From positions 1 to 32,155 of the forward strand of contig CACWSW010000012.1 of the NCBI GenBank assembly GCA_902763655.1: DNA of 32,155 nt, given 5' to 3'. Positions 299 through 22,738 of this stretch are shown here, one piece after another. The notes under the pieces are model-generated. The model had not been told where the DNA came from. It saw only the letters and a program-made list of their open reading frames with translations, and searched no databases. This DNA comes from an uncultured bacterium. GTDB lineage: Bacteria > Verrucomicrobiota > Kiritimatiellia > RFP12 > UBA1067. Within the stretch, counting starts at the first letter, position 1; each line of letters opens with the position of its first letter. The position numbers and the translations under genes are program-made.

Positions 299-1810
299 TC
301 AGTTGCTCCACCACGCCGGCGGAATCTGGTTGTTGAGGTGGCCGGTGTCGAGGTAGTCCGTCACCTTCATGTCGTGCCCCACGAGGCGGAGCGAACGCTG
401 GAACGACACGCCGTGCGACACGGGCGAACCCCACGCGGCGTACCCGGCGCCCATGTACATCTTCTGCCAGTCCTTGCCGTACAGGTGGTGCCAGGTCGTC
501 GCGATGAAGCCGAACCCGCCGATCTTCACGATGTGGTCGGCCATCGGCTTCATCGACGTGTCGTTCATCCACGGACAGCCGGCCACGGCGAATCCCCGTT
601 CCTTGAAATACGTCATCGTGGGCCAGGTGCAGCGGACGCCGCCCTTCGCCGTGTGGTCGCCGTACTGCCAGTCGCAAATCACGATGTCCTTCGGCAGGCG
701 GTCGAGGATGGACGCCGCCTCGGCGTCGCCGCACACGGTAAAGCCCTTCCAGTGGGGATCCTTCTTGTCGAGCAGCATGTCATGCCACATCATCGCGCGC
801 GCGCCGCGCGACCTCACGAACTCCGCAAGGCCCGTGATGTGCCGCAGCACCAGCTCGCTGTTCGGCGTCTTGACGCAGTCGGGACAGGTCTGCCGGTCTG
901 CCTCGTCGCAGCCGATGTGGAAGTAGGGCGGATTGCCGAAGTTCTCGTGCATCTCCGCGATCAGCTCGCGCAGGACGCGCTGCGTCTCGGGATTTGAGAG
1001 GCACCAGTTCCACCCGCTGCTCCATCCGTCCGGCTCGAAGAGCGGCTCGTACTCGGGGTGGAGGTCGAGCGCGCTGTGCTTGAGCGAACGTCCGCGCGCG
1101 GACGTGGCGTGCCCGTAGCAGTTGATCTGCGGGATGAGCGTGATGCCGAGATCGCGTCCGACCGCCACGAGACGGCTCACCTCCGCCTTCGTCATGTTCG
1201 CCTGCGGCCAGCACCACCACGGGTGCTTCTCGCTCTTGTACATGCCCCACGGCTCGATGATCGCGTAGTTGAACTTGAGGAGCGCAGCCAGGCGGATCGC
1301 GCGCTCGATCTGCTGCGGGCGTACCTCCGGAAACCAGCACAGGTGCACCGCGCGGAACGCGAGGTGCGGACGGTCCGAAATGGTAAGCGCAGGAATGATC
1401 CATCCCTCGGTCTTGAACGTGCCGCGCTTCGCGATCGCAAGCTGCCGCAGCGTGTACGCCGCCCACCGCACGCCCGCGAGCGTGCGCGCCGCGATCTTCG
1501 CGCCGTCCGCTCCCGTTTCCGCCGCGTACGCTTCGTCCCCGGAAGGGACGCGCTCCTGCGCGTCCGCGGTCGCGCGGTCGCGCGCCCCTCCCGCCGCCAC
1601 CACCTTCGGCGCGTACGCGCCGTACCACTCCGCGAAATGCGACTCGAGCCATTTGACGGCGGCAGGGTCCGGACACTCCACCGTGACCGTCGTCGTATTG
1701 TCGAACGGCACGTAGTTCTTCTTGTCCATCTTGAACGTCTGGTAGGGCGCGGCCGTAACCGCAAGACACGCCGCCAGAACGGCGCAGCAGATGATTTTGA
1801 CCTTCAGCAT
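299..1810 (-). CDS. Secreted GH20-type beta-N-acetylhexosaminidase
   Basis: This 503-residue protein should remove terminal beta-linked GlcNAc or GalNAc from glycans outside the cytoplasm. Residues 1-21 form a signal peptide (MLKVKIICCAVLAACLAVTA). Residues 23-140 resemble the small GH20b-type domain. From about 145 the catalytic barrel follows, with HIGCDE at 298-303; Asp302-Glu303 is the expected catalytic pair of substrate-assisted GH20 enzymes. GHAT near 234 and the Trp-rich segment near 198-201 also fit. The start is well supported: AAGGAGG lies 7 nt upstream and overlaps the stop codon of the preceding GH89-like gene, so the two are probably translationally linked. Residues 82-90 (ADAQERVPS) come from an inserted hairpin repeat in the small domain and have no counterpart expected in the family. 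Exact linkage specificity cannot be told from the sequence. Confidence 0.82.
   Translation of the reverse strand: MLKVKIICCAVLAACLAVTAAPYQTFKMDKKNYVPFDNTTTVTVECPDPAAVKWLESHFAEWYGAYAPKVVAAGGARDRATADAQERVPSGDEAYAAETGADGAKIAARTLAGVRWAAYTLRQLAIAKRGTFKTEGWIIPALTISDRPHLAFRAVHLCWFPEVRPQQIERAIRLAALLKFNYAIIEPWGMYKSEKHPWWCWPQANMTKAEVSRLVAVGRDLGITLIPQINCYGHATSARGRSLKHSALDLHPEYEPLFEPDGWSSGWNWCLSNPETQRVLRELIAEMHENFGNPPYFHIGCDEADRQTCPDCVKTPNSELVLRHITGLAEFVRSRGARAMMWHDMLLDKKDPHWKGFTVCGDAEAASILDRLPKDIVICDWQYGDHTAKGGVRCTWPTMTYFKERGFAVAGCPWMNDTSMKPMADHIVKIGGFGFIATTWHHLYGKDWQKMYMGAGYAAWGSPVSHGVSFQRSLRLVGHDMKVTDYLDTGHLNNQIPPAWWSN
1544..1567 (+). repeat. Interspersed hairpin repeat, family A, in frame inside the GH20 gene
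   Basis: The core at 1546-1565 is a perfect inverted repeat, GGACGCGC - TCCT - GCGCGTCC (8-bp stem, 4-nt loop). The same 24 bases occur at 9453-9476 inside an unrelated gene. On the coding strand it reads as DAQERVP in both genes. Confidence 0.85.
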
Positions 1811-1817
1811 ATTCGTC

Positions 1818-1824
1818 CCTCCTT
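1818..1824 (-). promoter_or_regulatory. Strong ribosome-binding site of the GH20 gene, overlapping the upstream stop codon
   Basis: On the minus strand the sequence is AAGGAGG, 7 nt before ATG at 1810. The TAA of the GH89-like gene (1825-1823) is part of the same TAAGGAGG string. Ribosomes terminating on the first gene would sit on the binding site of the second, which suggests coupled translation. Confidence 0.75.
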
Positions 1825-4096
1825 AGCGCAGCGAAACGATCTTTTCCGCACAGCGGGCAAGTTCGCCCATCACGCGGCGCCAGTTCTCCGGCGTACGCGG
1901 AAGCGTGGGACGCATCTCGGCGAGCGGACGGTGCAGGCTGCGCTCGCGGTAGCGGTCCGGGAAGAGCGTCGGCAGCGGCGACTTGTCGCCGGCGGCGGCG
2001 TGCTCGGCGAGCTGCGCGGCGAGGTCCGCCATCGCTGGCGCGGCCCACCAGCGCGCGACTTCGTACTGGTGCGAACGGCAGTAGCCGCATGACGCGTTGT
2101 CGTAGAGCACGTGCTCGAAGTCCGGGTTGCGGATCTTCTCGACGGCATCGAGGCGCAGATAGGATTCGTAGAGCGAGTAGTCCGTGTGGAGCGCGAGGAG
2201 ATCGGCGAAGACGCGGCCGAGGGCGGAGTAGGCGGTGGCGACGGATTGGACGTCGGTGGCGGTCGCAATAAATTGCGACCCTCCCGATTTCCAACTATGG
2301 TAGGTAGAAAGGAGCTTGATGCGGGCGGCGGAGATGAGACGGTCGGCGGCCGTGCGGGCGAGGTCCACGGCGTCGCGGCGGCCGAAGTCCCCTTCCCAGT
2401 CGAGCGCGGCGAGCGCATCAAACAGACGTGGCGTGCAGGCGAGTTCGGCGGGGAACTGCTTCTTCCACGCGGCGGGGTCGTTGCGCTTCGGGCAGCCGTC
2501 CACGGCGTCCGTGATGCATCCGCCGCCCCAGCCGAGCAGGCGGGAAAGCGGGATCACGTCCTTCCAGCAGGCCGCGAAGGCGTCCGCCTGCTTGCCGTAG
2601 CGGTCGCGGCAGAACTCCGCGAGGAGCGCATCGACGTCCATCTTGTCCGCGCGCCAGGCGTTGGCCGTGAAGTAGCGGAGCAGGAGAATGTCGGTGTGCG
2701 AGGACTCCGGCCAGAAGATGTACCCCTTGCAGAACGGGTCGTTCTGGATCGCGCGCTGGCGCTCGAGGATGAGCGGATAGTTCGCGCGGACGTCGAGCGC
2801 CTTCTCGTAGGCGATGAAGAGACCGAACGTGTAGGGGAACTTGCCGACCACGTCCCAGCGCGTGAAGTTGTTCGCGCCCTTGATTTTGTTGCCGAGCAGG
2901 TCGTTGCTCACGGCGTCCACCTCGTAGTCCCACACGATGGTGGACTTCGGGTCGAGCTCCTTGAGAAGCGCGGAGACCTCTTCCGGATGCCAGGTGAGGT
3001 AGAAATCCCAGCCGGCGAGGAGAACGCGGCTGTCGGGGTAGTGGGATTTCGCCTTTGCGATGAGGCGCTTCAGCACATCGATCTTCAGCTGGAGGTTCGC
3101 CGCGCGGTCCTTGTAGCAGAGGCGCTCGCCGAGTCCGATCGTGTGGAGGAGGTCGGGCTTGCCGTAGGCGGCGATCGAGGCCTCGGTGAGCTTCCAGTAG
3201 GCGTCGAGCCACTTGTCCTTGCGCACGTCCCACACGCGGTCGGTGGGATGTCCGTAGCATCCGCCCTCCTGCGGGAGGAAGTCAGGCTTCACCGTATCAA
3301 GGAACTGGTACGGCGTGCGGGAGTACCAGTGGCTCATCGTGCCGAAGTCCTCGGGCACCATCAGGCCGCGGTCGAAGGCGTAGTCGAGCACCGACTTGCG
3401 CAGCAGGCCGCGGAACTGGAGCGACCAGAAGAGCGAGCGGTTGTTGTAGCCGGGCATCGCCTCGGGGAGCGGCTTCGCGGGGTCGGGGTAGTCCACCACG
3501 TCGGGATACGCCTTCTGGAACGCGTCGTCCATGCCGATGCGCGGCATGATGAGGTTGAGGCGGCGCTTGACGCACCAGTCGATCTCCTTCTTCCAGTCCT
3601 CAAGCCCCCAGTGCTCGGCCTGGAAACGCGTAAGACCGCGGTGCGCGAAGTAGCGGAGGCCGCGGAACTCGAAGGACGAGCGCTCGTCCACGTCGAGCCC
3701 CGTAATGTCGGGCGCGGCGCCCTTCGGCACCACGTCGCCGTCCCAGAACCAGCGGCAGCCGCCGCGCCGCTCGAGAAAGTCGTAGACGGCGTAGAGCGCG
3801 CAGCGCCCGTTGACGACAGCGAGCTCGAGCCCATTCGCATCCGACTTCATCCGGTACGCGTCAAGGCCGTCCTTCACCGGCGGCAACGCCACGAAGCGGA
3901 TCGCCTTCGCCTCCGTCGCCGCCGGAACGATCGCCAGCTTCTCGCCGCAGATTTCCTGCCAGTAGCGCGCCAGCTCCTGCGCGGCGATCCGGTGCGCCTT
4001 CTCGCCGCACGCGGGCGGCAGCACGATTTGCATGGCCTGAATCCTTTCGACGAAGAAAAGACTCGCGAAAAGGGCTAAGAGCATTTTACTTTTCAT
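1823..4096 (-). CDS. Secreted GH89-like glycosidase (alpha-N-acetylglucosaminidase type)
   Basis: This 757-residue protein probably cleaves alpha-linked N-acetylglucosamine. The chosen start is ATG 4096: AAGGA lies just upstream, it is 1 nt from the preceding stop, and it gives a signal peptide (MKSKMLLALFASLFFVERIQ). Residues 22-135 form an N-terminal domain with ALYAVYDFLERRGGCRWF, a pattern shared by GH67/GH89/DUF4838-type proteins. Residues 145-480 look like the barrel: HWGLEDWKKEIDW near 162-174, GLGE at 321-324 as a possible catalytic Glu, and LLAGWDF near 359-365. The C-terminal part is helical, as in NAGLU. The peptide GGSQFIAT (605-612) is encoded by an inserted palindromic repeat. 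An alternative start at 4183 lacks a signal sequence at its N-terminus. The family call rests on overall pattern, and GH67- or DUF4838-like enzymes remain possible. Confidence 0.6.
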   Translation of the reverse strand: MKSKMLLALFASLFFVERIQAMQIVLPPACGEKAHRIAAQELARYWQEICGEKLAIVPAATEAKAIRFVALPPVKDGLDAYRMKSDANGLELAVVNGRCALYAVYDFLERRGGCRWFWDGDVVPKGAAPDITGLDVDERSSFEFRGLRYFAHRGLTRFQAEHWGLEDWKKEIDWCVKRRLNLIMPRIGMDDAFQKAYPDVVDYPDPAKPLPEAMPGYNNRSLFWSLQFRGLLRKSVLDYAFDRGLMVPEDFGTMSHWYSRTPYQFLDTVKPDFLPQEGGCYGHPTDRVWDVRKDKWLDAYWKLTEASIAAYGKPDLLHTIGLGERLCYKDRAANLQLKIDVLKRLIAKAKSHYPDSRVLLAGWDFYLTWHPEEVSALLKELDPKSTIVWDYEVDAVSNDLLGNKIKGANNFTRWDVVGKFPYTFGLFIAYEKALDVRANYPLILERQRAIQNDPFCKGYIFWPESSHTDILLLRYFTANAWRADKMDVDALLAEFCRDRYGKQADAFAACWKDVIPLSRLLGWGGGCITDAVDGCPKRNDPAAWKKQFPAELACTPRLFDALAALDWEGDFGRRDAVDLARTAADRLISAARIKLLSTYHSWKSGGSQFIATATDVQSVATAYSALGRVFADLLALHTDYSLYESYLRLDAVEKIRNPDFEHVLYDNASCGYCRSHQYEVARWWAAPAMADLAAQLAEHAAAGDKSPLPTLFPDRYRERSLHRPLAEMRPTLPRTPENWRRVMGELARCAEKIVSLR
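2260..2286 (+). repeat. Interspersed hairpin repeat, family B, in frame inside the GH89-like gene
   Basis: The sequence is a 9-bp perfect inverted repeat, GGTCGCAAT - AA - ATTGCGACC, followed by CTCCCG. All 27 bases recur exactly at 5899-5925 in the MFS transporter gene. In both genes the coding strand is read in the same frame, giving GGSQFIAT. Confidence 0.9.
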
Positions 4097-4097
4097 A

Positions 4098-5219
4098 TCA
4101 GTTCCTTGTATTTCCAAAATGCGTGAAATGCACGAGAACCGCACCTTTGGACACGAGGACGTACTCCCCGTTACGTTTGGCATAATGCGGTTCGCTGTAC
4201 TCGATCGTCACTTGAATATCGCCGATCCTGCCTTGGCACACGAAGAACCGGTTGCTGCCGCCGAGATCCGGGTCGTCGCCCGGAACCGCAACGCCATGAT
4301 TCCTCCGCGCAAACATTTTTCTTAAATAATCGGAGGTGCCCGGAACCTTCACGCCGGCTTCTGTCTCGATTCGTTTCAGCACGGCCGTCGCCGCGGTCTT
4401 GAGTTCCTCATTGGAGACATCTCCGTCAAACACCCGGCGCAACTTTGCCTCAAACAGCCGGCTTGGACGTCCTGGCATGCCCGTGAAAAGCAACTGGCGC
4501 TCGCTCAATCCCTCCACAGGCTTCGCCAGCTTGACCCATGAGTGTGGCAAAGGACGTCTTTCGTCGGGTTGCACGCAATTAAAATCCACGTCAAACAGGC
4601 GCTTCAACGCCGAACTAAGCCCTTGGCTCTGCGTTGCGCGGAAAGGTTCGTCGCGTCGTTCCGCCTCGCGGGAAATCACATTGAGATGCAAGTCGGTCAC
4701 AAGCGGCCCGTTCTTTTTTCGAATTGCGGAACTGACCATTATCATGACGCGCACGCCATTCGTCGTGTTCCCGATCAACCACTGGGACTTGATGTCTTTC
4801 GGCGTCTGTAGAGTATCCTTGAACTTGACGTCGAAGTCCCGTTCCAGCCGTTCTCTAAGGGATTTGGCACGCTGCGTGTATTCGTCAAAACGGTCTCCCT
4901 GGACGTGCGCGCTCGCAGAAACTGAAGCGATCCGCTTGGTCTCCGTCAGCTGGAGTTCGACTGTCTCGAAGCCGAACCATTCGTTTGTCACAACCGCGAC
5001 AAAAGGCCTGTTTCCTGTGGGATAACCGGGCGTAAAGGCCCGAAGCTGCGTGCACGACCCGTTCCAAACATCCCCCCACTTGAGATTGTTCGGCAGAGGA
5101 ATGTCTTTTGCCCACGCGGCAACGGCAGAGATCGTCAGAAGGACGATTCCCCACCTTCTGAAAGAATGCGTCGATGTGTTCGCCATCGAGGCTTGTCTTT
5201 TCTGCCGTTGATTTAACAT
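4098..5219 (-). CDS. Secreted or membrane-anchored protein of unknown function
   Basis: I do not recognise this 373-residue protein. It has a polar N-terminus followed by a hydrophobic segment (GIVLLTISAVAAWA, about residues 24-37) that would act as a signal sequence or anchor. The rest is soluble, with two segments that look like a loose internal repeat: both contain a short block near F-x-V-x-F followed by a basic stretch (about residues 95-130 and 205-240). The start at 5219 has AAGGGA 6 nt upstream and overlaps the MFS stop by 7 nt; Met12 (5186) is a weaker alternative. It lies between the permease and the GH89-like gene and ends 1 nt before the latter, so it is surely co-transcribed. By eye its base composition is less GC-rich than its neighbours, which may indicate separate acquisition. 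Confidence 0.75.
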   Translation of the reverse strand: MLNQRQKRQASMANTSTHSFRRWGIVLLTISAVAAWAKDIPLPNNLKWGDVWNGSCTQLRAFTPGYPTGNRPFVAVVTNEWFGFETVELQLTETKRIASVSASAHVQGDRFDEYTQRAKSLRERLERDFDVKFKDTLQTPKDIKSQWLIGNTTNGVRVMIMVSSAIRKKNGPLVTDLHLNVISREAERRDEPFRATQSQGLSSALKRLFDVDFNCVQPDERRPLPHSWVKLAKPVEGLSERQLLFTGMPGRPSRLFEAKLRRVFDGDVSNEELKTAATAVLKRIETEAGVKVPGTSDYLRKMFARRNHGVAVPGDDPDLGGSNRFFVCQGRIGDIQVTIEYSEPHYAKRNGEYVLVSKGAVLVHFTHFGNTRN

Positions 5220-6583
5220 GCCGGTCCCTTCTTCTTTGACTCAAACAGTCTCTCCAGCTCGTCCAGCGACTTGCCTTTCGTCTCGGGGATGAAGCAGGCC
5301 GTGACGAAGTAGAGGACGCCGTTCGCGGCGAAGAAGAAGAACATCGACGACCAGCCCCAGGCCTCGACCCACGGACGGAACGTGGAGGCGAGCCCGCACG
5401 CGGCGAGCTGGTTCAGGAAGAGCGCGATCGCCATGCCGTTCGCGCGGATACGCGAGGGCATGAGCTCGGAGAGGACGAGCCACACGCAGATGCCGGGCCC
5501 GAGCGCATAGAACACCTGCATGAAGAAGAACGCGAAGAGCGTGAGCAGCCCCGTAAAGTTGTTCGCCTGCACGCCGAAGCGCTCGATCGCGAGAAACACG
5601 CTGCCGATGGCCGCAAGCCCGAGCGTCATGCCGCCCGTGCCCACCTTCAGGAGCCACGTGCGCCCCTTCCTGTCGATGAGCGCGGCGGCGACGAGCGTCA
5701 CGAGCATGTTCGTGAGCTTCACCGCGAGCTGTCCCCAGTTGGCGAAGATACCGTCGAAGCCCGCCTGGTGCAGGATCGACACGAGATAGCTCGTGAACGA
5801 GCTCATGCCCGTCGTCTTGTTGAAGGTCAGCACGAGGCACGCGAGCAGGAAAGGGATGACGTAGCGGCGCCGGAGGAGGGATTGCGTTCCTCCCGTTTCG
5901 GTCGCAATAAATTGCGACCCTCCCGTACTGGGACAACGGGCATCTTGCCCGTTGCACTGGGACAACGGGCGTCTCGCCCGTTGCAGCCACACCGGACTCT
6001 CCGGCAACCGCAGGCTCCCGAAGAACAGCACCGCCACGGGCGCCATCGTCCACCAGAAGTTGGCGCGCCAGGCGGCGGCCATGCCAGCCGCATTGATGTC
6101 CGACGCGTCCGACGCGCCGTAGTACGTCGCGACGAGGCACCCTGCGCCGGCGGCGATCACTAGACCGAAGCCGAGGAAGAACTGGAACACGCCGGTGCCG
6201 CGTCCGCGGATCGCGGACGGGAGCGTCTCGGTGAGGTACATCGGCATGACCACGGCCATGTAGCCGGCGCTCATGCCCTGGAGGATTCGGCCCGCGAACA
6301 GGACAGGGAAGCAGTCGAGCGCGAGGCACACCACGGGAATCGCCAGGAGGAACATCGCCGACGCCGCCACGATCATCTTCTTGCGGCCCAGCCAGTCGCA
6401 CAGCACGCCTGCGGTGAGAGACGAGATCAGGCCGCCAAGCATCACCGCGCCCACCACGAGGCTGACGCGCGTGCCGGAGTAGATGCCGAGAGCCATCAGG
6501 TACGGCTCGGCCGCGGCGATCACGCCAAAGTCGACCCCGTACAGCAGCCCGCCCAGACCGGCGATTATGATGATGAGCTTCAC
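5213..6583 (-). CDS. Sugar-porter-family MFS transporter
   Basis: This 456-residue inner-membrane permease probably imports a sugar released by the neighbouring glycosidases. The family is clear from GGLLYGVDFGVI in TM1 (11-22), DWLGRKK (63-69), PMYLTETLPSAIRGRG (114-129), PESPVWL (194-200) and PETKGKSLDELE near the C-terminus. About 12 hydrophobic segments are visible. The start is GTG at 6583, needed to keep TM1 complete, with only a weak ribosome-binding site and a 10-nt gap to the upstream gene. Residues 201-235, in the central cytoplasmic loop between TM6 and TM7, are a composite of several inserted repeats (QRARRPLSQCNG..., GGSQFIAT, GGTQSLL). The insert is in frame and at the loop most tolerant of length change, so the protein may still work. 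The substrate cannot be read from the sequence. Confidence 0.88.
   Translation of the reverse strand: MKLIIIIAGLGGLLYGVDFGVIAAAEPYLMALGIYSGTRVSLVVGAVMLGGLISSLTAGVLCDWLGRKKMIVAASAMFLLAIPVVCLALDCFPVLFAGRILQGMSAGYMAVVMPMYLTETLPSAIRGRGTGVFQFFLGFGLVIAAGAGCLVATYYGASDASDINAAGMAAAWRANFWWTMAPVAVLFFGSLRLPESPVWLQRARRPLSQCNGQDARCPSTGGSQFIATETGGTQSLLRRRYVIPFLLACLVLTFNKTTGMSSFTSYLVSILHQAGFDGIFANWGQLAVKLTNMLVTLVAAALIDRKGRTWLLKVGTGGMTLGLAAIGSVFLAIERFGVQANNFTGLLTLFAFFFMQVFYALGPGICVWLVLSELMPSRIRANGMAIALFLNQLAACGLASTFRPWVEAWGWSSMFFFFAANGVLYFVTACFIPETKGKSLDELERLFESKKKGPAC
5875..5893 (+). repeat. Small hairpin, probable variant copy of family B, in the MFS gene
   Basis: GGAGG (5875-5879) pairs with CCTCC (5889-5893). 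On the coding strand the unit CGGGAGGAACGCAAT mirrors the start of the adjacent family B copy, CGGGAGGGTCGCAAT, differing at two bases. It looks like a diverged neighbour copy. Confidence 0.5.
5899..5925 (+). repeat. Interspersed hairpin repeat, family B, second copy, in the MFS gene
   Basis: All 27 bases are identical to 2260-2286. The stem is GGTCGCAAT/ATTGCGACC. It encodes GGSQFIAT in the TM6-TM7 loop of the transporter. It is flanked on one side by a variant half-copy and on the other by two tandem family C units. Confidence 0.9.
5927..5984 (+). repeat. Two tandem 29-nt hairpin units, family C, in the MFS gene
   Basis: The units 5927-5955 and 5956-5984 are identical except for two bases in the loop. 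Each begins ACTGGGA and then forms CAACGGGC - loop - GCCCGTTG, an 8-bp stem with loop ATCTT in the first and GTCTC in the second. Both are read through in frame by the transporter gene. Confidence 0.88.
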
Positions 6584-6593
6584 GGGATGGATC

Positions 6594-8306
6594 TTACCTG
6601 GTGCCGCACCAGACGGGGCGGATCACCTCGATGCGGTCGGAGAGGACGAAGTCGACGCCGAGGGCGAGAAGCTCCTTCGCCTTTTCCGGCTTGTCGCACT
6701 TGAAGTATGAGACCTTCACCCCGGCGGCGTGCATCATCTCCACGTCCGCGCGCGAGCAGGGGTAGAGCAGCTGGAGGAACTGGCACTTGTTCTCGACCGT
6801 CTGCTTCGCGTAGAGCGTGCTCTTCTCCGGCGGCCAGGGCTTGTGGTAGGCGTCGAGGCCCTTGACGGTCCGGCTCATGTTGCAGGTGAGGATGTCGGGG
6901 ACCGCCTTGCGGGCCTCGGCGATGGCGGGAAGCGACGAAGCCACGAACGCCTGGTGCAGGCGCCCTTTCGCCTTGATCTTCTGCGCCACCTCCACGGCCA
7001 CGTTCCCCGCGCTGTGGCAGTTGATCCACACGCCCTCGGTGGGCAGGCAGTCGATCGCCTCGTCGAAGGTGGGCACCTTCACGTTCGCGTCGGGATGTCC
7101 GGGCCACTTGATGGTGAGCTTGCGGATCTCGTCGAAGGTGAGGGCCGACACGGCGCCCTTTCCGTTCGTCGTGCGGTCGACCGTGCCGTCGTGCATGATC
7201 ACGAGCTCGCCCGTCTTGCAGCGCTTGACGTCGAACTCCACCATCGCGGCGCCGAGGGCGACGGCGTTGGTGAACGCCACGACGGTGTTGGCGGGCTTGC
7301 CGCCACCGTTGCCCTGGTGGGCGCAGACGCCGCGCGACGGCATGGGCGGCGCGTCGAACGTGCCGCACACGAGGCGCAGGGTGTGGCCGGTGTCCTCGAT
7401 CTCGAAGAGCTTCATGCGCTCGGCCTCGCCGGAGTTCGGCTGGTGGAGGGTGAGGAGCAGCTTGCCGTCGAACGTGCGGAAGAGCATGCCGTGTCCGCCG
7501 TTCTTCCCGTAGAGGATCTCGTCCTTCGTCCAAGGGCCGGCGATCTTTCCTGTGGTCGACTTGCGCAGCAGCACGCAATACCCGTGCCCCTTGACGAAGT
7601 TCGACCAGATCATGTAGAGGTCGCCGTTCTTTGGCGAGCGGTAGAAGAACGGCCCGTCCGTGACGTGGCTCGCGCCGGGCATCGCGTCGCGCGCGGCGAA
7701 CATCGTCTTCGGCGGCGCGGTGAACGAGGCGAAGTCCTTCGCGAGGGGCGCGTAGCACATCCGGCCGTTGTCGACCTGGCACCACTCGTGGCAGAACACC
7801 ATGTAGGGCTGGCCGTCCTCGACGTAGAGCGTGCCGTCGAGCGTCATCCACTCCTTGGGCGGGATCGGCCCCATCTTCACCGGCTTGAACGGCCCGAGCG
7901 GACTCTCCGACTTGAACACCCACGTGCCGCGCGGCGTGAGGTGCCCCTCCTTTGCCTTCGGGTCCATCGCCTTGATCGGCGCGGATCCCTTCTTCTCCGT
8001 GAGGGTGGTGAAGAGGTAGTAGGCGCCCTCGTGCTTGTGGACCTCAGGCGCCCACACGGCCGTGACGGGCACGCCTTCGGGCACGATCATCGCGGGCATC
8101 TTCTCGCTCCAGTGCTCAAGGTCTTTGCTCGTACGGACGGATACGCCCTTGCCGCCGAACCACGGCTTGGACTCGTAGAGATAGTAGGTGCCGTTGTCCG
8201 CGAGGACGAACGGATCGCGGATGCGGAAGTCTTTCCGAAGCTCCGCGTATGCCGAAAAGGCGCATGCGCCGGCCAGGACGGCGGCAAGGGCTATCTGTGC
8301 TTTCAT
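6594..8306 (-). CDS. Secreted GH43-type glycosidase fused to a glycerophosphodiester phosphodiesterase (GDPD) domain
   Basis: This 570-residue protein has a signal peptide (1-21, ending AYA) and two catalytic-type domains. Residues 25-320 match a GH43 five-blade propeller: RDPFVL with Asp31 as likely base, WAPEVH (85-90), TLDGT with Asp157, VTDGPFFYR (215-223) and GGHGMLFRTFDG (270-281). Residues 326-566 match GDPD: HQG (330-332), PANTVVAF (338-345), the metal-binding MVEFDV with Glu357/Asp359, MHDGTVDRTTNGKG (371-384), and a late FVLSDR segment. The usual GDPD HRG and PENT are HQG and PANT here, so activity may be altered. It is the first gene of the glycan operon, with an extended -10 box 7 nt before its ATG. 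Known GH43 enzymes release arabinose, xylose or galactose; the substrate here is unknown. Confidence 0.82.
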   Translation of the reverse strand: MKAQIALAAVLAGACAFSAYAELRKDFRIRDPFVLADNGTYYLYESKPWFGGKGVSVRTSKDLEHWSEKMPAMIVPEGVPVTAVWAPEVHKHEGAYYLFTTLTEKKGSAPIKAMDPKAKEGHLTPRGTWVFKSESPLGPFKPVKMGPIPPKEWMTLDGTLYVEDGQPYMVFCHEWCQVDNGRMCYAPLAKDFASFTAPPKTMFAARDAMPGASHVTDGPFFYRSPKNGDLYMIWSNFVKGHGYCVLLRKSTTGKIAGPWTKDEILYGKNGGHGMLFRTFDGKLLLTLHQPNSGEAERMKLFEIEDTGHTLRLVCGTFDAPPMPSRGVCAHQGNGGGKPANTVVAFTNAVALGAAMVEFDVKRCKTGELVIMHDGTVDRTTNGKGAVSALTFDEIRKLTIKWPGHPDANVKVPTFDEAIDCLPTEGVWINCHSAGNVAVEVAQKIKAKGRLHQAFVASSLPAIAEARKAVPDILTCNMSRTVKGLDAYHKPWPPEKSTLYAKQTVENKCQFLQLLYPCSRADVEMMHAAGVKVSYFKCDKPEKAKELLALGVDFVLSDRIEVIRPVWCGTR

Positions 8307-8313
8307 GGGAGCT

Positions 8314-8322
8314 AGTATATCA
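8314..8322 (-). promoter_or_regulatory. Extended -10 promoter of the glycan operon
   Basis: On the minus strand the sequence is TGA-TATACT, a TGn extended -10 box, followed by 7 nt and the ATG at 8306. No convincing -35 is seen. The implied transcription start lies at or next to the start codon, so the mRNA would have almost no leader. It sits in the 27-nt gap after the transglutaminase-like gene. Confidence 0.55.
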
Positions 8323-8333
8323 AATTCCGCGTG

Positions 8334-11300
8334 CTAGCGCTTGCGGACGGTTAGCGTGCGGCAGGCGCGCGAGGAGGCGCGGCGGTTCCAGTCGCGCAGG
8401 AACTGGAAATAGTCCGCCGTGAGCTGCGTGGCCCGAGCGCGATGCGCGCGCCGGCGCACCGTCACGTGGAGCCGTCCGTCCACCACCTTGTGCGAAACGT
8501 CGTGCGTCATCCAGACGTTCGATCCGTCCGCAGGGTTCACGAGGCGCAGGTTTTCCGGCAGGTGCTCGATCTCCGTGTAGCCTTTCGGCAGCACGATCTC
8601 GTACGTGTCGATCGCCTCCGCCTTGCCCATCACGGCCAGAGGCGACTTCCGCAGGGGGCCGCCAACGGAGAACAGGTTGCCGGAGAAGTCGGGGATGGTC
8701 AGCGTCAGCATCCCGTCCTGCAGGACGGCAAAGTCGGCCACGTATGCCGAGAACGCGACGTACGCGGGATATCCCTTCGTCTCGGTGACGAGGTCGGACG
8801 TGGCGGTGGCGTTTTCGGAGAGCTTGCCGACGAGCTGCTGGAAGAAGCGGCTGCGCATCTCCGGACGCATCTCCTCGAACCTCTTGCGGATGCCGCCCAC
8901 GCCCGCGCCGTACGTGAAGTTGGTGATGTCGAAGTCCGCCGACCCGTTATCGCGCACCGTTATCCTGCACCACGAGTCGTCGCGGCTGCGCCATGGGGAG
9001 TCCAGCGGTACGTCGACGATGCCGAACGTGTCGGTGGCCGGATCGTAGAAGTCGTCGCCCTCGCGCGACGTCGTCTCGGGCGGCGTGTACTCGTTCTCGC
9101 CCGCCACCCAGAAAAGGCGTCCGCTCGCGTCGCGCGCGCGAATCACCAACGCGTCGAACGACGACGGGCGCGGCACGCGGCGGCGTTCCTCCTCGGTGAG
9201 CGTGAAGCCGTGCACCGTGTCGGCGGCGAAGACGAACGAGCAGTCGAAGCCCGCTCCCTCCAGCATCGCGAAGAGCAGGTTCATCCTGTCAGCGCCGGAG
9301 GCGTAGCCGTCCGCCAGCGCGCGGTCGGGCGTGGAGAAGGCCCGATCGAACGGCAGCTCGAAGAGGCCGGGACCCGTCACGCGCAGGTTGTGCGCGAGGT
9401 ATTGGCGGATGGCCGTGATTCTCGCCGCCGAGACGGCGGCTCTCCATGCGGGAGGGACGCGCTCCTGCGCGTCCGCCAGCTCGCGGCCCTTGCGGCGGGC
9501 GGCATCCGAGCCTCTCTCCCGCGCGTGCGCGAGCGAATTGAGGAAAGAGGAGCCTTGCCCCTTCCAGTCGGCGGCAGACACGGTGAAGGCTGGCCGCCAG
9601 TGGGAGAGCGGCGGGCGCGAGGGCTCGTCGGGCACGCGCGGCGGGCGCGTCGCCGTCCAGCGGTAGACGCCGGCCTTAGGGTCCTTGACGACTTTAAGGC
9701 CTTTAAGGTCATTAGGGTCAATGGAGGCGTTGGAGCTTTCAAGGTCGTCAAAGTTCTCGAACACCTTGAAGACATTCCGCATGGTGGGCGGCACGTGGTA
9801 CTCGTAGCTCTCCAGGCCGTAAGGCTCCTCGCCGCCAAAGGTGACGACGCCGTTGAACGCGGTCGGCGCGTTCGTGACGACCCGTGCGATCGTCGTGCGG
9901 ATCACGCTGCCCACCTCAACGCCCGGCAGGTTCACCACGAGGATCTTCGACGCGGGATAGCGTGGCGCGTTTGCCGCCCAGCCGCAGTCCATCGTGTTGA
10001 TCTCCTTCGGCGTCACGGAGAACACCTTGCCGTTCCTGTTCGACACGGTGGCGGAGACAACCTCGACCGACCGCGTGCTTGGCGCGTAGCCGAACTTCAT
10101 CTCGGCGTTCGACTTCTTGCCGCGGTACGTGAGTATCTCCTTCTCGACCGTGTTCGTCGAGACCCAGCACGTCGGCGAGGTGAAGTGCACGACCGTGCGC
10201 GAGGACACGATCTTCACGTGCGCATTGTCGTCGGCGCGGGCGGCGAATACAGGTTGCGCCCGCTCGGCGGTCTCCACCTCCTTGCGCGCGTTCCGCAACG
10301 CGTCGTAGTCCTTCACTTCGAAGTTGATGTCCGTGACCTTCATCGTGCGCGAGGCGGCAAGGACTCCGTTCGTCACCGCCACCATGCGCGCGAACATGTA
10401 GCCGGCGGCGTTGGTGACGCAGCACGAGGGCGGCAGCGACCGCACGCCGCCAAGCGCCTCCTCGCCGAGCGCTAGCGAGATCGTCTCAGCGGTGCCGGCC
10501 GTCGAGGCCAGCACGAGCGGGAAGCGGCGCGTCTCGAGCGCGGTATTCTCGTCAAGTAGCGCGTTAGCCACGCTAAGCCCCTCCGTGACAAACGGCAGCG
10601 AGAGCGTATCGCGCGTCTCGCCGCGCAGGACTGCCTCCGGGAGTCGCGCAACGGTCGTTGCGGTCAGGCGCGAGTCCGTGTCGCGAAGGTCGACGGGGAG
10701 AAGCTCGAGCGACAGCAGCTCCGCGCCCGGCGCGACGTTGCGCACGAACGACTCGAACGCGCGGCGTCTCTCGTCCGGCGTACGCTTCAGGAGCGTATGG
10801 CGGACAGCGGTGTCGTTGATGCCGTCGAAGGCGAAGCGGCTTGTCAGCAGGATGCCGCCGTCCGCCGAGAGCGTGCCGGTGGAGTCGATGCGGAGCATGT
10901 TCTCGTCCACGGGCTTAACTGGCGACGTGCGAAGCATCTCCCCCTCCGGCGTCGCAACGAGATACGACATGTCGGAAAGGTACGACGGGAGCAGATCCCG
11001 GCTTGACTCGTCCGTAGGATCCATGAGGGTGAAAGGTGAAGCTTCCACCGCCACGACGGCGTGGTTGAAGTATGGGATCGGGACGTCGGGATCCATCTTC
11101 GCGCCGGCGTGGATGAGGACGGGGTAGGCCGTGATGCCGGCGATGCGGAAGAGCGCGACCAGAAGCACGGCCTTGTCGCGGCAGACGCCGTAGCGGTTGT
11201 CGAAGGTGACGTTCACGTCGTGCGGCTCGTAGCCTGGCGCATCGTCCTCCAGCGTGAGGCCCATGTAGCGGATCTCCTGCGAGACGAACTTGAAGAGCGC

Positions 11301-12212
11301 GCGGATCTTCGCGTCGCGCGTCGCGCAGTCCTTCACGACGTCGCGCACCAGGTTCGTCATGGCGGGCGTGGTGGCGGAGAGGTGCGGCTCGCACAGCTTC
11401 CAGTACCATCGCGAGACGGATGGCCAGTCCTTCGCGGTGGACAGCCACAGCGCCTGCACGCAGCGAGAGAGCGGCGGCATGTTGGGCTCGGCGAACGCCT
11501 GCGGCACGTCGCGAGCCGTCCAGCGCAGCAGCGTGCGTCCGCTACCGAGCGGCACGTCCGCAGCGCGCGCGACGGTGTTGCTGAAGGCGTGGCGGAGGAG
11601 GGCGTGGCGGACCGGGTTCTCGGAGGGCTGGTCGACGGTGACGACGGTCGAAAGGATGGGCGCGGTGTACTCGAGGATGTTGCAGTCGGCCCACGTGCCC
11701 TTCATGCGCGGCTTGCGGGTGCGGCGCGCATAGCGCACGTGGCGGATCTCGCCCGCGGCTAGGCCAGGGATGGCGCAACTCATGCGGCGCTGGAGGGGAT
11801 CGACGATGTTCGAGCCCATGCTGGAGTTGTCCGTCGCCGTCTTGAGCGTCCGCGCGAAGTCGACCGTGCGCACCTGCCCGTTCGTCCCCACGATCTCCAC
11901 GCAGAAGATGGCGGCGTCGCCGTAGCGCGCGTTGAAGGTGACGGAGAGCGACGCGTGGGAGCGGCGCCCCTTCTCGGTGAGCACCTTGACCCACTCGTCG
12001 TCCCAGGTGCAGTCAGAGCCGTCGGGCTCGTAGGCCGTGTGGAGACGGTCGTCCAGCATCACGGAGTCGGCGTCGGGAAACCGCTCCGGTGTGGCCGCTC
12101 GGGCGGCGGCGATGACGTCTGACGGGACGGCGCGATAGGCCGAAGGCATGTCGGGGATTCCATCGGCCTGCGCAACCAGCGCGGCCAGCCAGATCAGGTG
12201 CCAGAATTTCAT
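8334..12212 (-). CDS. Large secreted protein with two DUF3857/transglutaminase-like modules, the second degenerate
   Basis: This 1292-residue protein starts with a signal peptide (about 1-18). The first module has a DUF3857-like region (about 65-250), then a transglutaminase-like domain with a complete papain-type triad: YGVCRDKA (Cys344), FNHAVVAV (His384) and LMDPTD (Asp398). A second DUF3857-like region (about 660-860) precedes a second transglutaminase-like domain (about 930-1045). Here the Cys position reads ASGADR, the His position SSFDAL and the Asp position FWVAGEN, so no triad remains. Proteins of this architecture in other phyla are periplasmic or surface-bound and of uncertain role. 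Two foreign-looking inserts sit in the second half: a KDL-type 9-nt repeat (residues about 831-847) and a hairpin repeat (about 912-932). It is transcribed from its own promoter, divergent from the acyl-CoA synthetase gene. Confidence 0.8.
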   Translation of the reverse strand: MKFWHLIWLAALVAQADGIPDMPSAYRAVPSDVIAAARAATPERFPDADSVMLDDRLHTAYEPDGSDCTWDDEWVKVLTEKGRRSHASLSVTFNARYGDAAIFCVEIVGTNGQVRTVDFARTLKTATDNSSMGSNIVDPLQRRMSCAIPGLAAGEIRHVRYARRTRKPRMKGTWADCNILEYTAPILSTVVTVDQPSENPVRHALLRHAFSNTVARAADVPLGSGRTLLRWTARDVPQAFAEPNMPPLSRCVQALWLSTAKDWPSVSRWYWKLCEPHLSATTPAMTNLVRDVVKDCATRDAKIRALFKFVSQEIRYMGLTLEDDAPGYEPHDVNVTFDNRYGVCRDKAVLLVALFRIAGITAYPVLIHAGAKMDPDVPIPYFNHAVVAVEASPFTLMDPTDESSRDLLPSYLSDMSYLVATPEGEMLRTSPVKPVDENMLRIDSTGTLSADGGILLTSRFAFDGINDTAVRHTLLKRTPDERRRAFESFVRNVAPGAELLSLELLPVDLRDTDSRLTATTVARLPEAVLRGETRDTLSLPFVTEGLSVANALLDENTALETRRFPLVLASTAGTAETISLALGEEALGGVRSLPPSCCVTNAAGYMFARMVAVTNGVLAASRTMKVTDINFEVKDYDALRNARKEVETAERAQPVFAARADDNAHVKIVSSRTVVHFTSPTCWVSTNTVEKEILTYRGKKSNAEMKFGYAPSTRSVEVVSATVSNRNGKVFSVTPKEINTMDCGWAANAPRYPASKILVVNLPGVEVGSVIRTTIARVVTNAPTAFNGVVTFGGEEPYGLESYEYHVPPTMRNVFKVFENFDDLESSNASIDPNDLKGLKVVKDPKAGVYRWTATRPPRVPDEPSRPPLSHWRPAFTVSAADWKGQGSSFLNSLAHARERGSDAARRKGRELADAQERVPPAWRAAVSAARITAIRQYLAHNLRVTGPGLFELPFDRAFSTPDRALADGYASGADRMNLLFAMLEGAGFDCSFVFAADTVHGFTLTEEERRRVPRPSSFDALVIRARDASGRLFWVAGENEYTPPETTSREGDDFYDPATDTFGIVDVPLDSPWRSRDDSWCRITVRDNGSADFDITNFTYGAGVGGIRKRFEEMRPEMRSRFFQQLVGKLSENATATSDLVTETKGYPAYVAFSAYVADFAVLQDGMLTLTIPDFSGNLFSVGGPLRKSPLAVMGKAEAIDTYEIVLPKGYTEIEHLPENLRLVNPADGSNVWMTHDVSHKVVDGRLHVTVRRRAHRARATQLTADYFQFLRDWNRRASSRACRTLTVRKR
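9424..9476 (+). repeat. Composite hairpin repeat (family A plus a GCCGCC hairpin) in the transglutaminase-like gene
   Basis: Two hairpins are adjacent. GCCGCC - GAGAC - GGCGGC spans 9424-9440. The family A core GGACGCGC - TCCT - GCGCGTCC spans 9455-9474; its 24-base unit 9453-9476 equals 1544-1567 in the GH20 gene. The coding strand reads through both as DAQERVPPAWRAAVSAAR. Confidence 0.85.
9673..9720 (-). repeat. Degenerate 9-nt tandem repeat (AAGGACCTT type) in the transglutaminase-like gene
   Basis: On the coding strand the units read AATGACCTT, AAAGGCCTT, AAAGTCGTC, AAGGACCCT, encoding NDL-KGL-KVV-KDP. The same unit type makes an eight-copy array in uvrA at 16145-16216. The two genes are unrelated, so the shared unit points to a dispersed repeat and not to a shared protein domain. 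Confidence 0.7.
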
Positions 12213-14758: not shown

Positions 14759-17689
14759 ATGGCGACGGACATCATCATAGAGGGCGCGAAGGTACACAAC
14801 CTGCGCAACATCGACGTACGCATCCCGCGCAACTCGCTTGCCGTCGTCACGGGCCTCTCCGGCAGCGGCAAGTCCTCCCTCGCGTTCGACACTCTCTACG
14901 CCGAAGGCCAGCGGCGCTACGTGGAGTCGCTCTCCGCATACGCGCGCCAGTTCCTCGACCAGATGCAGAAGCCCGACGTGGAGCGCATCGAGGGCCTATC
15001 CCCAGCCATCGCCATCGAGCAGCGCACCTCCGGCGGCAACCCGCGGTCGATCGTCGCCACCGTCACGGAGATCCACGACTACCTGCGCCTCCTCTACGGC
15101 TCCGTGGGCGTCGCCCACTGCCCAAAGTGCGGCAAGCCGGTTCGCCGCCAGAGCGCGGAGCAGATAGTCGAGACGATCCTGAAGTTTCCCGGCGGCACGA
15201 AGTTCATCATCTACGCGCCAGTCGTCAAGGGGCGCAAGGGGCGCCACGAGGAGACGCTCGCCGACATCCGCCGCGCCGGGTTCGTGCGCGTGCGCGTGGA
15301 CGGCGCCACCTACCCCATCGAAGAGGTGCCCGACCTCGACAAGAAGAAGAACCACTCCATCGACGTTGTCATCGACAGATTGGTCATTCCCAAGAGCGAA
15401 GAGGGAAGCACAACTATTCACTCTTCACTATCAACTATTAACTCGCAGTTCGTCACCCGTCTCACCGACTCGGTGGAGCTCGGGCTCAAGACCGGCCACG
15501 GGCTCATCTCGGTGGATCGGCTCGGCACCGGCGAGACCACCTACAGCGAAAAGAACGCCTGCCCCGACTGCGAGCTTTCCTTCGACGAGCTGAAGCCCCG
15601 CTCGTTCTCCTTCAACTCGCCATTCGGCGCATGCCCCACCTGCGGCGGACTGGGCTCCATCTACTTCTTCGACGAGGACCTCGTCGTGCCCGACAAGACC
15701 CTTCCGCTCCGCGAGTGCATACACCCCTGGCGGCGCGCAGGCCACATGGCGATCATGTACTACAACGAGATCCTCGCCAGGATCGCCAAGCAGTACAAGG
15801 TGAAGCTCGACACGCCGTACGAGAAGCTGCCAAAATGGTTCCGCCACAAGCTCATGCACGGCTTCGACGACGACCTCATCCTGCCCTGGCGTCGCGAGGA
15901 CAAGCCTTTCGCGGGCGTTCTAGACTCGGTGAAGCGCATGATGGAGAACGCCGAAAGCGACGAGAGGCGAGAGAAGTTCGAGGCGTACCAGAGCGACCGC
16001 CCCTGCCCCGCCTGCCACGGCTCGCGCCTCAGGCCCGAGTCCCGCGCCGCCACCGTCGCAGGAAAGACCATCGTCGAGGTCATGGCGATGCCGGTTAAGG
16101 ACTCCCTCGCCTTTTTCAAGGAGCTTCTGGACATCAGCCTTTCTAAGGACCTTAAGGATTTTAAGGACTCTAAAGACCTTAATGGCCTTAATGACTCTAA
16201 GGACCTTAAGGACCTTAATCTTGAGCCGATGAAGGACGTTTTGAAGGAGATCGTCAAGCGGCTGGGGTTCCTCAACGACGTCGGCCTCGACTACCTCACC
16301 CTCGACCGCTCCTCAAGCTCGCTGTCCGGCGGCGAGATGCAGCGCATTCGCCTCGCCTCCCAGATCGGCAGCGGCCTCGTGGGCGTCCTCTACGTCCTCG
16401 ACGAGCCGACCATAGGCCTCCATCCGCGCGACAACGAGCGCCTCATCGCCATGCTCAAGGCACTGCGCGACCGCGGCAACACTGTCGTCATCGTGGAGCA
16501 CGACGGCGAGATGATGCGCACCGCGGACTGGATCGTGGACCTCGGCCCGGGCGCCGGCCGCGAAGGCGGCCGCGTCATGTACCAGGGCGACTACAAGGGG
16601 CTTCTGAAGGCCGGCACGCTGACTTCCGATTATCTGAACGGGAAGAAGGCAATAGCCGCATCTGCAGCACCTCCAGCCACGATGGCCGAACTGTGTTCGA
16701 CCAAGAAAGGCAAGTGGCTCACCATCAGCGGGTGCACGGAGCACAACCTCAAGAACATCACCGTGCGCTTTCCGCTCGGCACGTTCACGGTCGTCACCGG
16801 CGTCTCGGGGAGCGGCAAGTCCACACTAATCGACGAGACCCTGAAGCGCGAGCTGATGCGCCGCTTCTACCACTCCAAGGCCGTGCCAGGCAAGTTCCGC
16901 AAGCTCGTTGGCGCGGAGCACATCGACAAGGTGATCGAGATCGACCAGTCGCCAATCGGACGCACCCCGCGCTCGAACCCGGCCACCTACGTAGGCTTCT
17001 TCTCCGACATCCGCGAGCTCTTCGCCAAGACCGAAGGCGCCAAGGCGCGAGGCTACACCGCCGGACGCTTCAGCTTCAACGTCAAGGGCGGCCGCTGCGA
17101 GACGTGCGGCGGAGACGGCGTGCGCAAGCTCGAGATGAGCTTCCTGCCGGACGTCTACGTCACCTGCGAGCAGTGCGGCGGCAAGCGCTTCAACAAGGAG
17201 ACGCTCGAGGTGACCTACGGCGGCAAGACGATCTCCGATGTCCTAGACATGACCGTGGCCGAGGCGTACGAGTTCTTCGCCAAGGTGCCACGCCTCGCCG
17301 CGAAGCTGAAGACGCTCGTCGACGTCGGTCTCGGCTACATCGGCCTCGGCCAGCCCGCCACCACCCTCTCCGGCGGCGAAGCCCAGCGCATCAAGCTCGC
17401 TACCGAGCTTTCGCGCCGTTCCACAGGCAAGACGCTGTACCTTCTCGACGAACCTACCACCGGCCTGCACTTCGACGACATCGCCAAGCTGATGAAGCTG
17501 CTTCTAAAGCTCCGCGAGAGCGGCAACACCGTCATCGTCATCGAGCACAACGTGGACGTGATGCGCTGCGCCGACTGGATAGTGGACCTCGGTCCGGGCG
17601 GCGGCGACGCCGGCGGCAACCTCGTGGCGGAAGGCCCGCCATCCGAAATCGCCAAGAATCCCGCCAGCCTCACCGGCCGATTCCTGTGA
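14759..17689 (+). CDS. uvrA: UvrABC system protein A (excinuclease ATPase) with two in-frame inserts
   Basis: UvrA is the damage-recognition ATPase of nucleotide excision repair. This copy has 976 residues, against about 940 in typical bacteria. The first ATP-binding site has GLSGSGKSS at 32-40, and a first zinc module has CPKCGKP at 121-127. Further cysteine pairs occur at 268-271, 292-295 and 416-419. [20 protein letters not shown] (521-540) and [11 protein letters not shown] follow, then a second Walker A (GVSGSGKST), the CETCGGDG zinc finger and a second [12 protein letters not shown] signature. Two segments do not belong to the family: residues about 212-229 ([18 protein letters not shown]) and about 460-487, a KDL repeat. 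Together they account for the extra length. All catalytic motifs remain intact. ATG 14759 has no Shine-Dalgarno; it is chosen because it matches the usual UvrA N-terminus. Confidence 0.95.
15411..15444 (+). repeat. AT-rich inserted segment in uvrA (ACTATTCACT type)
   Basis: A stretch built from variants of CAACTATTCACT, TCTTCACTATCA and ACTATTAACT stands out in an otherwise very GC-rich gene. It encodes [12 protein letters not shown] between the conserved VIDRL and RLTDSVE segments, where other UvrA proteins have only a few residues. Similar low-complexity motifs occur as dispersed repeats in other bacterial genomes. Confidence 0.7.
16145..16216 (+). repeat. Eight-copy 9-nt tandem repeat in uvrA
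   Basis: The units are AAGGACCTT, AAGGATTTT, AAGGACTCT, AAAGACCTT, AATGGCCTT, AATGACTCT, AAGGACCTT and AAGGACCTT, encoding [15 protein letters not shown] triplets. The period of 9 keeps the frame open. The site lies just before the segment leading to the LSGGE signature. Confidence 0.92.
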
Positions 17690-22574: not shown

Positions 22575-22738
22575 GACTGGTCGCTCCCATCTTCTTCCGC
22601 AGGAACAACGGGACCTCCGAACCAATGAACCCTGCTGTCCTCGTCAACGCGCAGGTTGTTGAGGACGCCGAGCATGACAGCTAGAAGCAACATCCCCGCA
22701 AGGACAACAATATTGAAATTTTTGAACTCGGCTTTCAT
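22571..22738 (-). CDS. Small single-pass membrane protein, 55 residues
   Basis: This short gene lies exactly between the giant protein gene and the MauE-thioredoxin gene. Its ATG (22738) shares one base with the giant gene's TGA (TGATG), and its own TGA overlaps the ATG of the next gene. The protein begins MKAEFKNFN, has one hydrophobic helix at about residues 10-26 (IVVLAGMLLLAVMLGVL), and ends in an acidic tail (PAEEDGSDQS). It is probably an inner-membrane protein with its N-terminus inside. No family is recognised. The exact overlaps on both sides argue that it is a real gene and not chance; it may anchor or help export one of the neighbouring products. Confidence 0.72.
   Translation of the reverse strand: MKAEFKNFNIVVLAGMLLLAVMLGVLNNLRVDEDSRVHWFGGPVVPAEEDGSDQS

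Follow-up and report, generated by a model that had tools for sequence, protein, structure and literature searches.

A GGGAG-tagged palindromic repeat, probably of the REP/RAYT kind, residing in frame in unrelated genes of Kiritimatiellae

The repeated palindrome and its carrier genes

The window analysed here (32,155 nt) is the entire contig C12 of G000, a 4.5-Mb Kiritimatiellae metagenome-assembled genome (MAG; 92% complete) of a rumen-type bacterium. Four of its genes carry short palindromic units in frame (Table 1). Direct comparison within the window confirmed that the NAGLU-like gene and the MFS gene contain an identical 27-mer, at the coordinates given by an initial annotation made from the sequence alone. 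The 9-bp hairpin that this annotation described is likewise present (core GGTCGCAAT-AA-ATTGCGACC, with 9-bp arms), and both genes read it in the same frame, yielding the peptide GGSQFIAT; the predicted tryptic peptides bearing the unit are SGGSQFIATATDVQSVATAYSALGR (NAGLU-like gene) and CPSTGGSQFIATETGGTQSLLR (MFS). Both genic copies reported at the time are real, but three further in-frame copies in the window had been missed, bringing the number to five units in four genes, all of which obey the frame rule described below. The two units of the GH20-like gene are head-to-head partners, 27 nt apart from start to start. The MFS copy, which alignment places in the loop joining the two protein halves, makes up only a part of a composite insert: it is flanked on one side by two ACGGGC-type palindromes, and a decayed unit lies on its other side.

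Table 1. Carrier genes, units and associated palindromes in the window
Feature	Position	Strand	Remarks
GH20-like glycosidase (carrier gene)	299..1810	-	
Type B unit, GCTCCTGC core, tag last on gene strand	1541..1565 (25-nt core)	+	ADAQERVPS, GH20-like gene
Degenerate unit, tag first	1568..1592	-	AGGARDRAT, GH20-like gene
NAGLU (GH89)-like glycosidase (carrier gene)	1823..4096	-	dN/dS 0.15 vs G004
Type A unit, GGGAG tag first on gene strand	2260..2286	-	In frame (S)GGSQFIAT(A), NAGLU/GH89-like gene
MFS sugar transporter (carrier gene)	5213..6583	-	dN/dS 0.22 vs G003
Decayed unit CGGGAGGAACGCAATCCCTC, adjoins MFS copy	5876..5895	-	Peptide TGGTQSL; read from sequence
Type A unit, identical to 2260..2286 copy	5899..5925	-	In frame (T)GGSQFIAT(E), MFS transporter
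Other palindrome, ACGGGCATCTTGCCCGT type (ACGGGC-type), two 29-nt copies	5927..5985	.	Same in-frame MFS insert
DUF3857/transglutaminase-like protein (carrier gene)	8334..12212	-	
Type B unit, tag last	9450..9474	+	ADAQERVPP, DUF3857 gene

First-order Markov shuffles of the window gave 0 repeated 20-mers, while the 20-nt core occurs in G000 in 13 exact copies and in 167 copies within 3 mismatches, compared to 0 for a reversed-pattern control, and the repeat in the window is therefore not due to chance.

Copy number and distribution

Genome-wide pattern searches found 348 units in G000, 505 in G006, 402 in G003, 368 in G023, 154 in G004 and 104 in G005. The reversed-pattern control gave 0 in G000, and the controls gave 0 or 1 throughout, so that in copy number the family resembles REP elements. 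In other relatives the same searches found far fewer units. The named records carrying the element are MAGs of Kiritimatiellae/Lentisphaerae, many of them from goat, roe deer or RUG assemblies. One short contig filed as Selenomonadaceae (L097) also holds a unit, and is probably mis-binned Kiritimatiellae DNA.

Unit architecture

On the minus strand, the consensus of the unit reads YGGGAG-GGNCGCN8GCGNCC-G. A pyrimidine precedes the tag in 84-87% of the copies and a G follows the stem in 96-99%, whether the copies are genic or intergenic, because of which the unit is taken to be 27 nt long. This amounts to nine codons, stop-free in most frames, and falls within the 20-40 nt of REP stem-loops. 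Pairing of the stem is kept through paired changes in the arms (GGT..ACC, GGA..TCC, GGG..CCC; AAT/ATT, AAC/GTT, AGT/ACT), the loop is short, and as a single strand the hairpin is predicted to be stable (-8.9 kcal/mol, z -4.65). The unpaired tag is GGGAG, not GTAG, and was present in 80 of the 83 units of the first sample, the search pattern having been built around it with one mismatch allowed. Three core types can be distinguished: A (AATTTATT and kin), B (GCTCCTGC and kin) and C (GCYYYRTC).

Many units are single or head-to-tail. Among the paired arrangements, head-to-head (tags outside) was the commonest with 47 cases, followed by 39 head-to-tail and 17 tail-to-tail pairs, and a 60-nt head-to-head dimer can be folded into one long hairpin (-23.7 kcal/mol). 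Head-to-head pairs do not appear to be bound to join different arm subtypes: for the cores the effect was not significant (P 0.16), and for identical units it was marginal (P 0.04; 0 pairs with identical members versus 3.0 expected, a weak difference).

Residence in genes and codon phase

Reading frames were counted on stretches of 16 MAGs, with genes called by our own dicodon gene finder. Since these sampled stretches were picked for holding units and are not complete genomes, their coding density provides no fair expectation for the genic share. The 308 sampled units comprise 165 within 80 genes (median 667 aa), 116 in intergenic DNA and 27 at gene edges, a distribution that departs from the extragenic location of REP elements and agrees with the in-frame residence in unrelated genes known from Rickettsia palindromic elements (RPEs). 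At the RAYT gene discussed below the genic share is, if anything, underestimated, because the gene finder missed that gene.

In 140 of the 165 genic units the first base of the 25-nt core falls on codon position 3. Of these, 74 are tag-first (GGSQFIAT, GGSQLVAT, GGSRSCAT) and 66 tag-last (DAINCVPP, VATSCDPP, DAQERVPP). Units within one genome are not fully independent events; when one unit per gene (at least 200 aa) was counted, 61 of 78 followed the rule versus 28.7 expected if all stop-free frames are equally likely (z 7.7). The excess is seen separately in G000, G003, G005, G006, G023 and G016, some of which contributed few units, and G061, a genome of another family, has 3 of its 4 genic units in the rule, few units for testing it. 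Misannotated starts do not account for the rule, given the balanced orientation of the units and their scattered positions within genes.

It could be argued that the phase is set at insertion, either because the enzyme targets one codon phase of GC-rich genes or because in-frame cassettes spread from gene to gene. The strength of the rule in both orientations, the conserved bases on either side of the palindrome, the recurrence of composites such as GGSRSCAT..DAQERVPP as blocks and the difference in genic residence between subfamilies would all fit such a mechanism. However, intergenic copies show the same conservation of the flanking bases, which may thus be part of the unit, and the other 25 genic copies occupy other phases. 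Moreover, the distance in nucleotides between neighbouring units is divisible by three for 65 of 67 neighbours sharing a gene, but for far fewer (23 of 41) in intergenic clusters. Altogether, we consider a phase imposed at insertion rather unlikely.

The subfamilies differ in where they reside. In G023, none of 40 type C units lies in a gene, compared to 17 of 25 type A units (P 6e-10), although type C has the same tag and equally open frames, which counts against pure tolerance of neutral peptides; tolerance alone may therefore not explain the genic pattern. Coming from one genome and partly from tandem arrays, the contrast hints that residence in genes is a trait of certain subfamilies, but does not prove it. 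In G061, 1 of 18 type C units lies in a gene (loci L252-L271). Some of the type C units in G023 (L272-L291) and G061 (L252-L271) form tandem arrays of ~97 or 120 nt.

Orthologous sites

Carrier genes evolve under purifying selection, with dN/dS values of 0.15-0.24 for nine gene pairs compared with their orthologs. That the units would be an artefact of assembly or binning is hardly credible: every genome involved is indeed a fragmented MAG, but the family and its frame rule recur in MAGs of separate series (RUG, goat RGIG), and the carriers are full-length genes under such selection.

At the NAGLU site, G004 and G014 are without the unit, G005 has the same unit displaced by one codon, and three units of type B are found in G006; the net difference at this site is about +12 nt, the two best sites differing by about 12 nt net. 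Other close ortholog pairs differ by 33-36 nt, corresponding to a unit plus spacer, and it follows from these ortholog differences that the gain and loss of units change the length by multiples of three. The unit at 1541..1565 is absent or replaced in orthologs of the GH20-like gene. In a GH92 gene (L023), compared with the solved structure 7zgm, one unit lies at a seven-residue gap and another in a 28-residue insertion; its closest relative, in G003 (94% identical), lacks the first and shares the second. Judging from such alignments, the units seem to sit in protein loops.

The central loop of the MFS transporter (window 5860-6000; orthologs L172-L188) has a different filling in each congener examined, several of these fillings consisting of short iterated or inverted repeats, and is a hot spot for many kinds of repeat DNA. 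Repeated refilling of the same loop in different species might be taken to mean that genic copies have been co-opted for a role at the protein or mRNA level, such as that of a regulatory hairpin or of a linker under positive selection. This seems very improbable, as in relatives the MFS loop is filled by unrelated repeats, the balanced orientation and the spread along genes are unlike those of a regulatory element, and the window has no Rfam match.

Clean empty sites were sought at the NAGLU-like and MFS genes, and orthologs proved to have replaced loops instead; likewise, none of the ortholog sites compared provided a clean pair of empty and filled sites with a target-site signature. The idea of an inserted 27-nt element thus stands in so far as orthologs without the unit exist, but not as a clean 27-nt insertion at either of the two sites. 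The broader proposal of a dispersed palindrome adding in-frame peptides to unrelated proteins is supported by the copy number, the predominance of one codon phase and the orthologs that lack the unit or hold others. Its sequence and host are also new as proposed, further copies abound, and distant homologs do not carry the peptide at the same place. We infer that the palindrome is mobile.

A candidate mobiliser

A first search with Pfam model PF01797 seemed to indicate that no transposase is linked to the units: 16 Y1 loci were found in the unit-rich genomes, none with a unit beside the gene. This reading was overturned by a match of the NCBIfam RAYT model NF047646 (80.1 bits versus a cut-off of 80) at G000:C163, where the coding region spans 8304-8906. 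The HUH (MPDHIHFF) and tyrosine (ESYTQKWEYVRNNP) regions are both present, a pair of units lies upstream and an array downstream, and four units reside in frame in one internal loop. The G000 protein has ~73 residues in a region for which the E. coli TnpAREP structure 4er8 has ~16, though the alignment is weak. G003, G006 (both type B) and G023 (type A) have orthologs whose corresponding loop and flanks likewise hold units, so that, as in known REP systems, a RAYT gene is flanked by repeats. The flanks of other RAYT-like genes in these genomes are without units of the GGGAG family. By its sequence context, the RAYT at C163 is likely the mobiliser of the units.

PF01797 detected one other Y1 gene in G000, a longer Y1/RAYT-like gene on C278 (L016), which is flanked by a different palindrome (AAACAGGTCAGACCTGTTT) and adjoins an integrase-like ORF. 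The RAYT-like genes L299 (G000:C45), L304, L310, L292 and L297 hold other tagged palindromes in frame (GTAG-GGACGGCGTTCCATCGCCGACC, GTAG-GGTCACGCGTCCCGCGTGACC, GGGAG-GGCGAGCGTCCCCGCGAGCC and GTGG-GGCGAGGCGTCCCGCCGAGCC), and in-frame residence may be a general trait of this lineage.

Relation to known elements

REP elements and their RAYTs have been described as the GTAG super-family and as REPtrons (Di Nocera et al. 2013, PMC3733652; Nunvar et al. 2010, PMC2817692); a REP of P. putida, too, begins with TGTGGGAG (PMC2817692). The present family shares with them the short, apparently tagged palindrome, hundreds of copies, complementary arm subfamilies, mostly head-to-head dimers and a RAYT flanked by units. 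It differs in its tag, its Kiritimatiellae host, the roughly half of sampled copies that are genic, the single codon phase per orientation and the in-frame units inside the RAYT. An extragenic site is typical of REPs, though not strict, and intragenic REPs exist, above all in the verrucomicrobial O. terrae (PMC3733652). For REPs, we found no earlier report in the open-access literature of such a genic share, of one codon phase per orientation or of units inside the RAYT; nor did the open-access subset of the literature contain a description of the GGGAG family or of such elements in Kiritimatiellae.

RPEs are palindromes found between genes and, read in frame, within many conserved genes that are unrelated to one another (Ogata et al. 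2000, reviewed in PMC2229807), and at least one carrier protein, Gmk, has been shown to be made and active (PMC2229807). The similarity in residence, intergenic copies included, could suggest that the units are a close functional and evolutionary counterpart of RPEs, i.e. a selfish coding palindrome without a transposase of its own. We regard this as improbable, since RPEs measure 105-146 bp (PMC2229807) and their short forms in Rickettsia are CGTC-tagged (PMC3733652), compared to a GGGAG-tagged unit of 27 nt in another phylum, and since RPEs have no known transposase, whereas a RAYT with GGGAG units is present in the genome. Of the likeness to RPEs noted in the initial annotation, in-frame residence holds; no other feature tested is shared, and REP/RAYT fits instead. 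Membership of the RPEs is therefore disfavoured, while the analogy in working stays.

Head-to-head doublets that can fold as one long hairpin are also reminiscent of REPINs (PMC3116915), from which the family differs in its many single or head-to-tail units and, as a weak indication, in head-to-head members never being identical. With MITEs that have open frames, such as ERIC and the 107-bp Correia element (PMC2229807), the units share being short, non-autonomous and fused in frame; such MITEs, however, are 100-200 bp long, end in terminal inverted repeats and are often accompanied by TA target duplications, features that were not seen here. As far as sequence comparison can tell, the element appears to belong with REP/RAYT and to work like the Rickettsia elements, and what seems new is its host, its coding share and its frame rule.

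Proposed mechanism and meaning

We think it probable that the units make up a REP family with a GGGAG tag, which belongs to a REP/RAYT system and is copied by the RAYT, with subsequent selection for in-frame copies in loops. The RAYT would copy the hairpins as single-stranded DNA, after which these could land in intergenic as well as genic sites. With nine codons that are stop-free in most frames, an insertion can leave the gene open, and selection would mainly keep copies that add a multiple of three nucleotides in loops. The retained frame, one per orientation, would yield a peptide rich in glycine or proline and almost without charge (GG[STAP][QR]..AT or DA..[CR]VPP), and units would later be gained and lost within loops already holding repeats. 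We infer that the peptides are translated and that a selective filter leaves the tolerated frame.

More tentatively, some REP subfamilies might be a protein-coding mobile unit of nine codons, with a preferred frame per orientation, that can accumulate in genes and even in the gene of its own transposase, whereas a sister subfamily that shares the tag and has frames just as open remains extragenic. If this rather speculative reading is true, genic residence is a property of the element and not only of host tolerance. Until now, protein-coding palindromes have been a curiosity of the Rickettsiales, and REPs within genes have been listed as exceptions. The present system combines copies in the hundreds, a candidate transposase and a sharp codon-phase rule with several related genomes for comparison, and the seeding of new peptides by short mobile DNA becomes directly testable. 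The family also explains odd recurrent peptides (GGSQFIAT, DAQERVPP) in the proteins of these bacteria, which can mislead annotation and homology searches.

Other repeats in the window

A second class of in-frame repeat filling consists of tandem 9-nt repeats (TAAGGACCT type), which lengthen UvrA (window 16142-16218; uvrA, 14759-17689) and also occur in the DUF3857 gene (9675-9715). At 22738-32155 lies a very long ORF (>3000 aa) with diverged repeats of several hundred bases, which probably encodes a surface protein.
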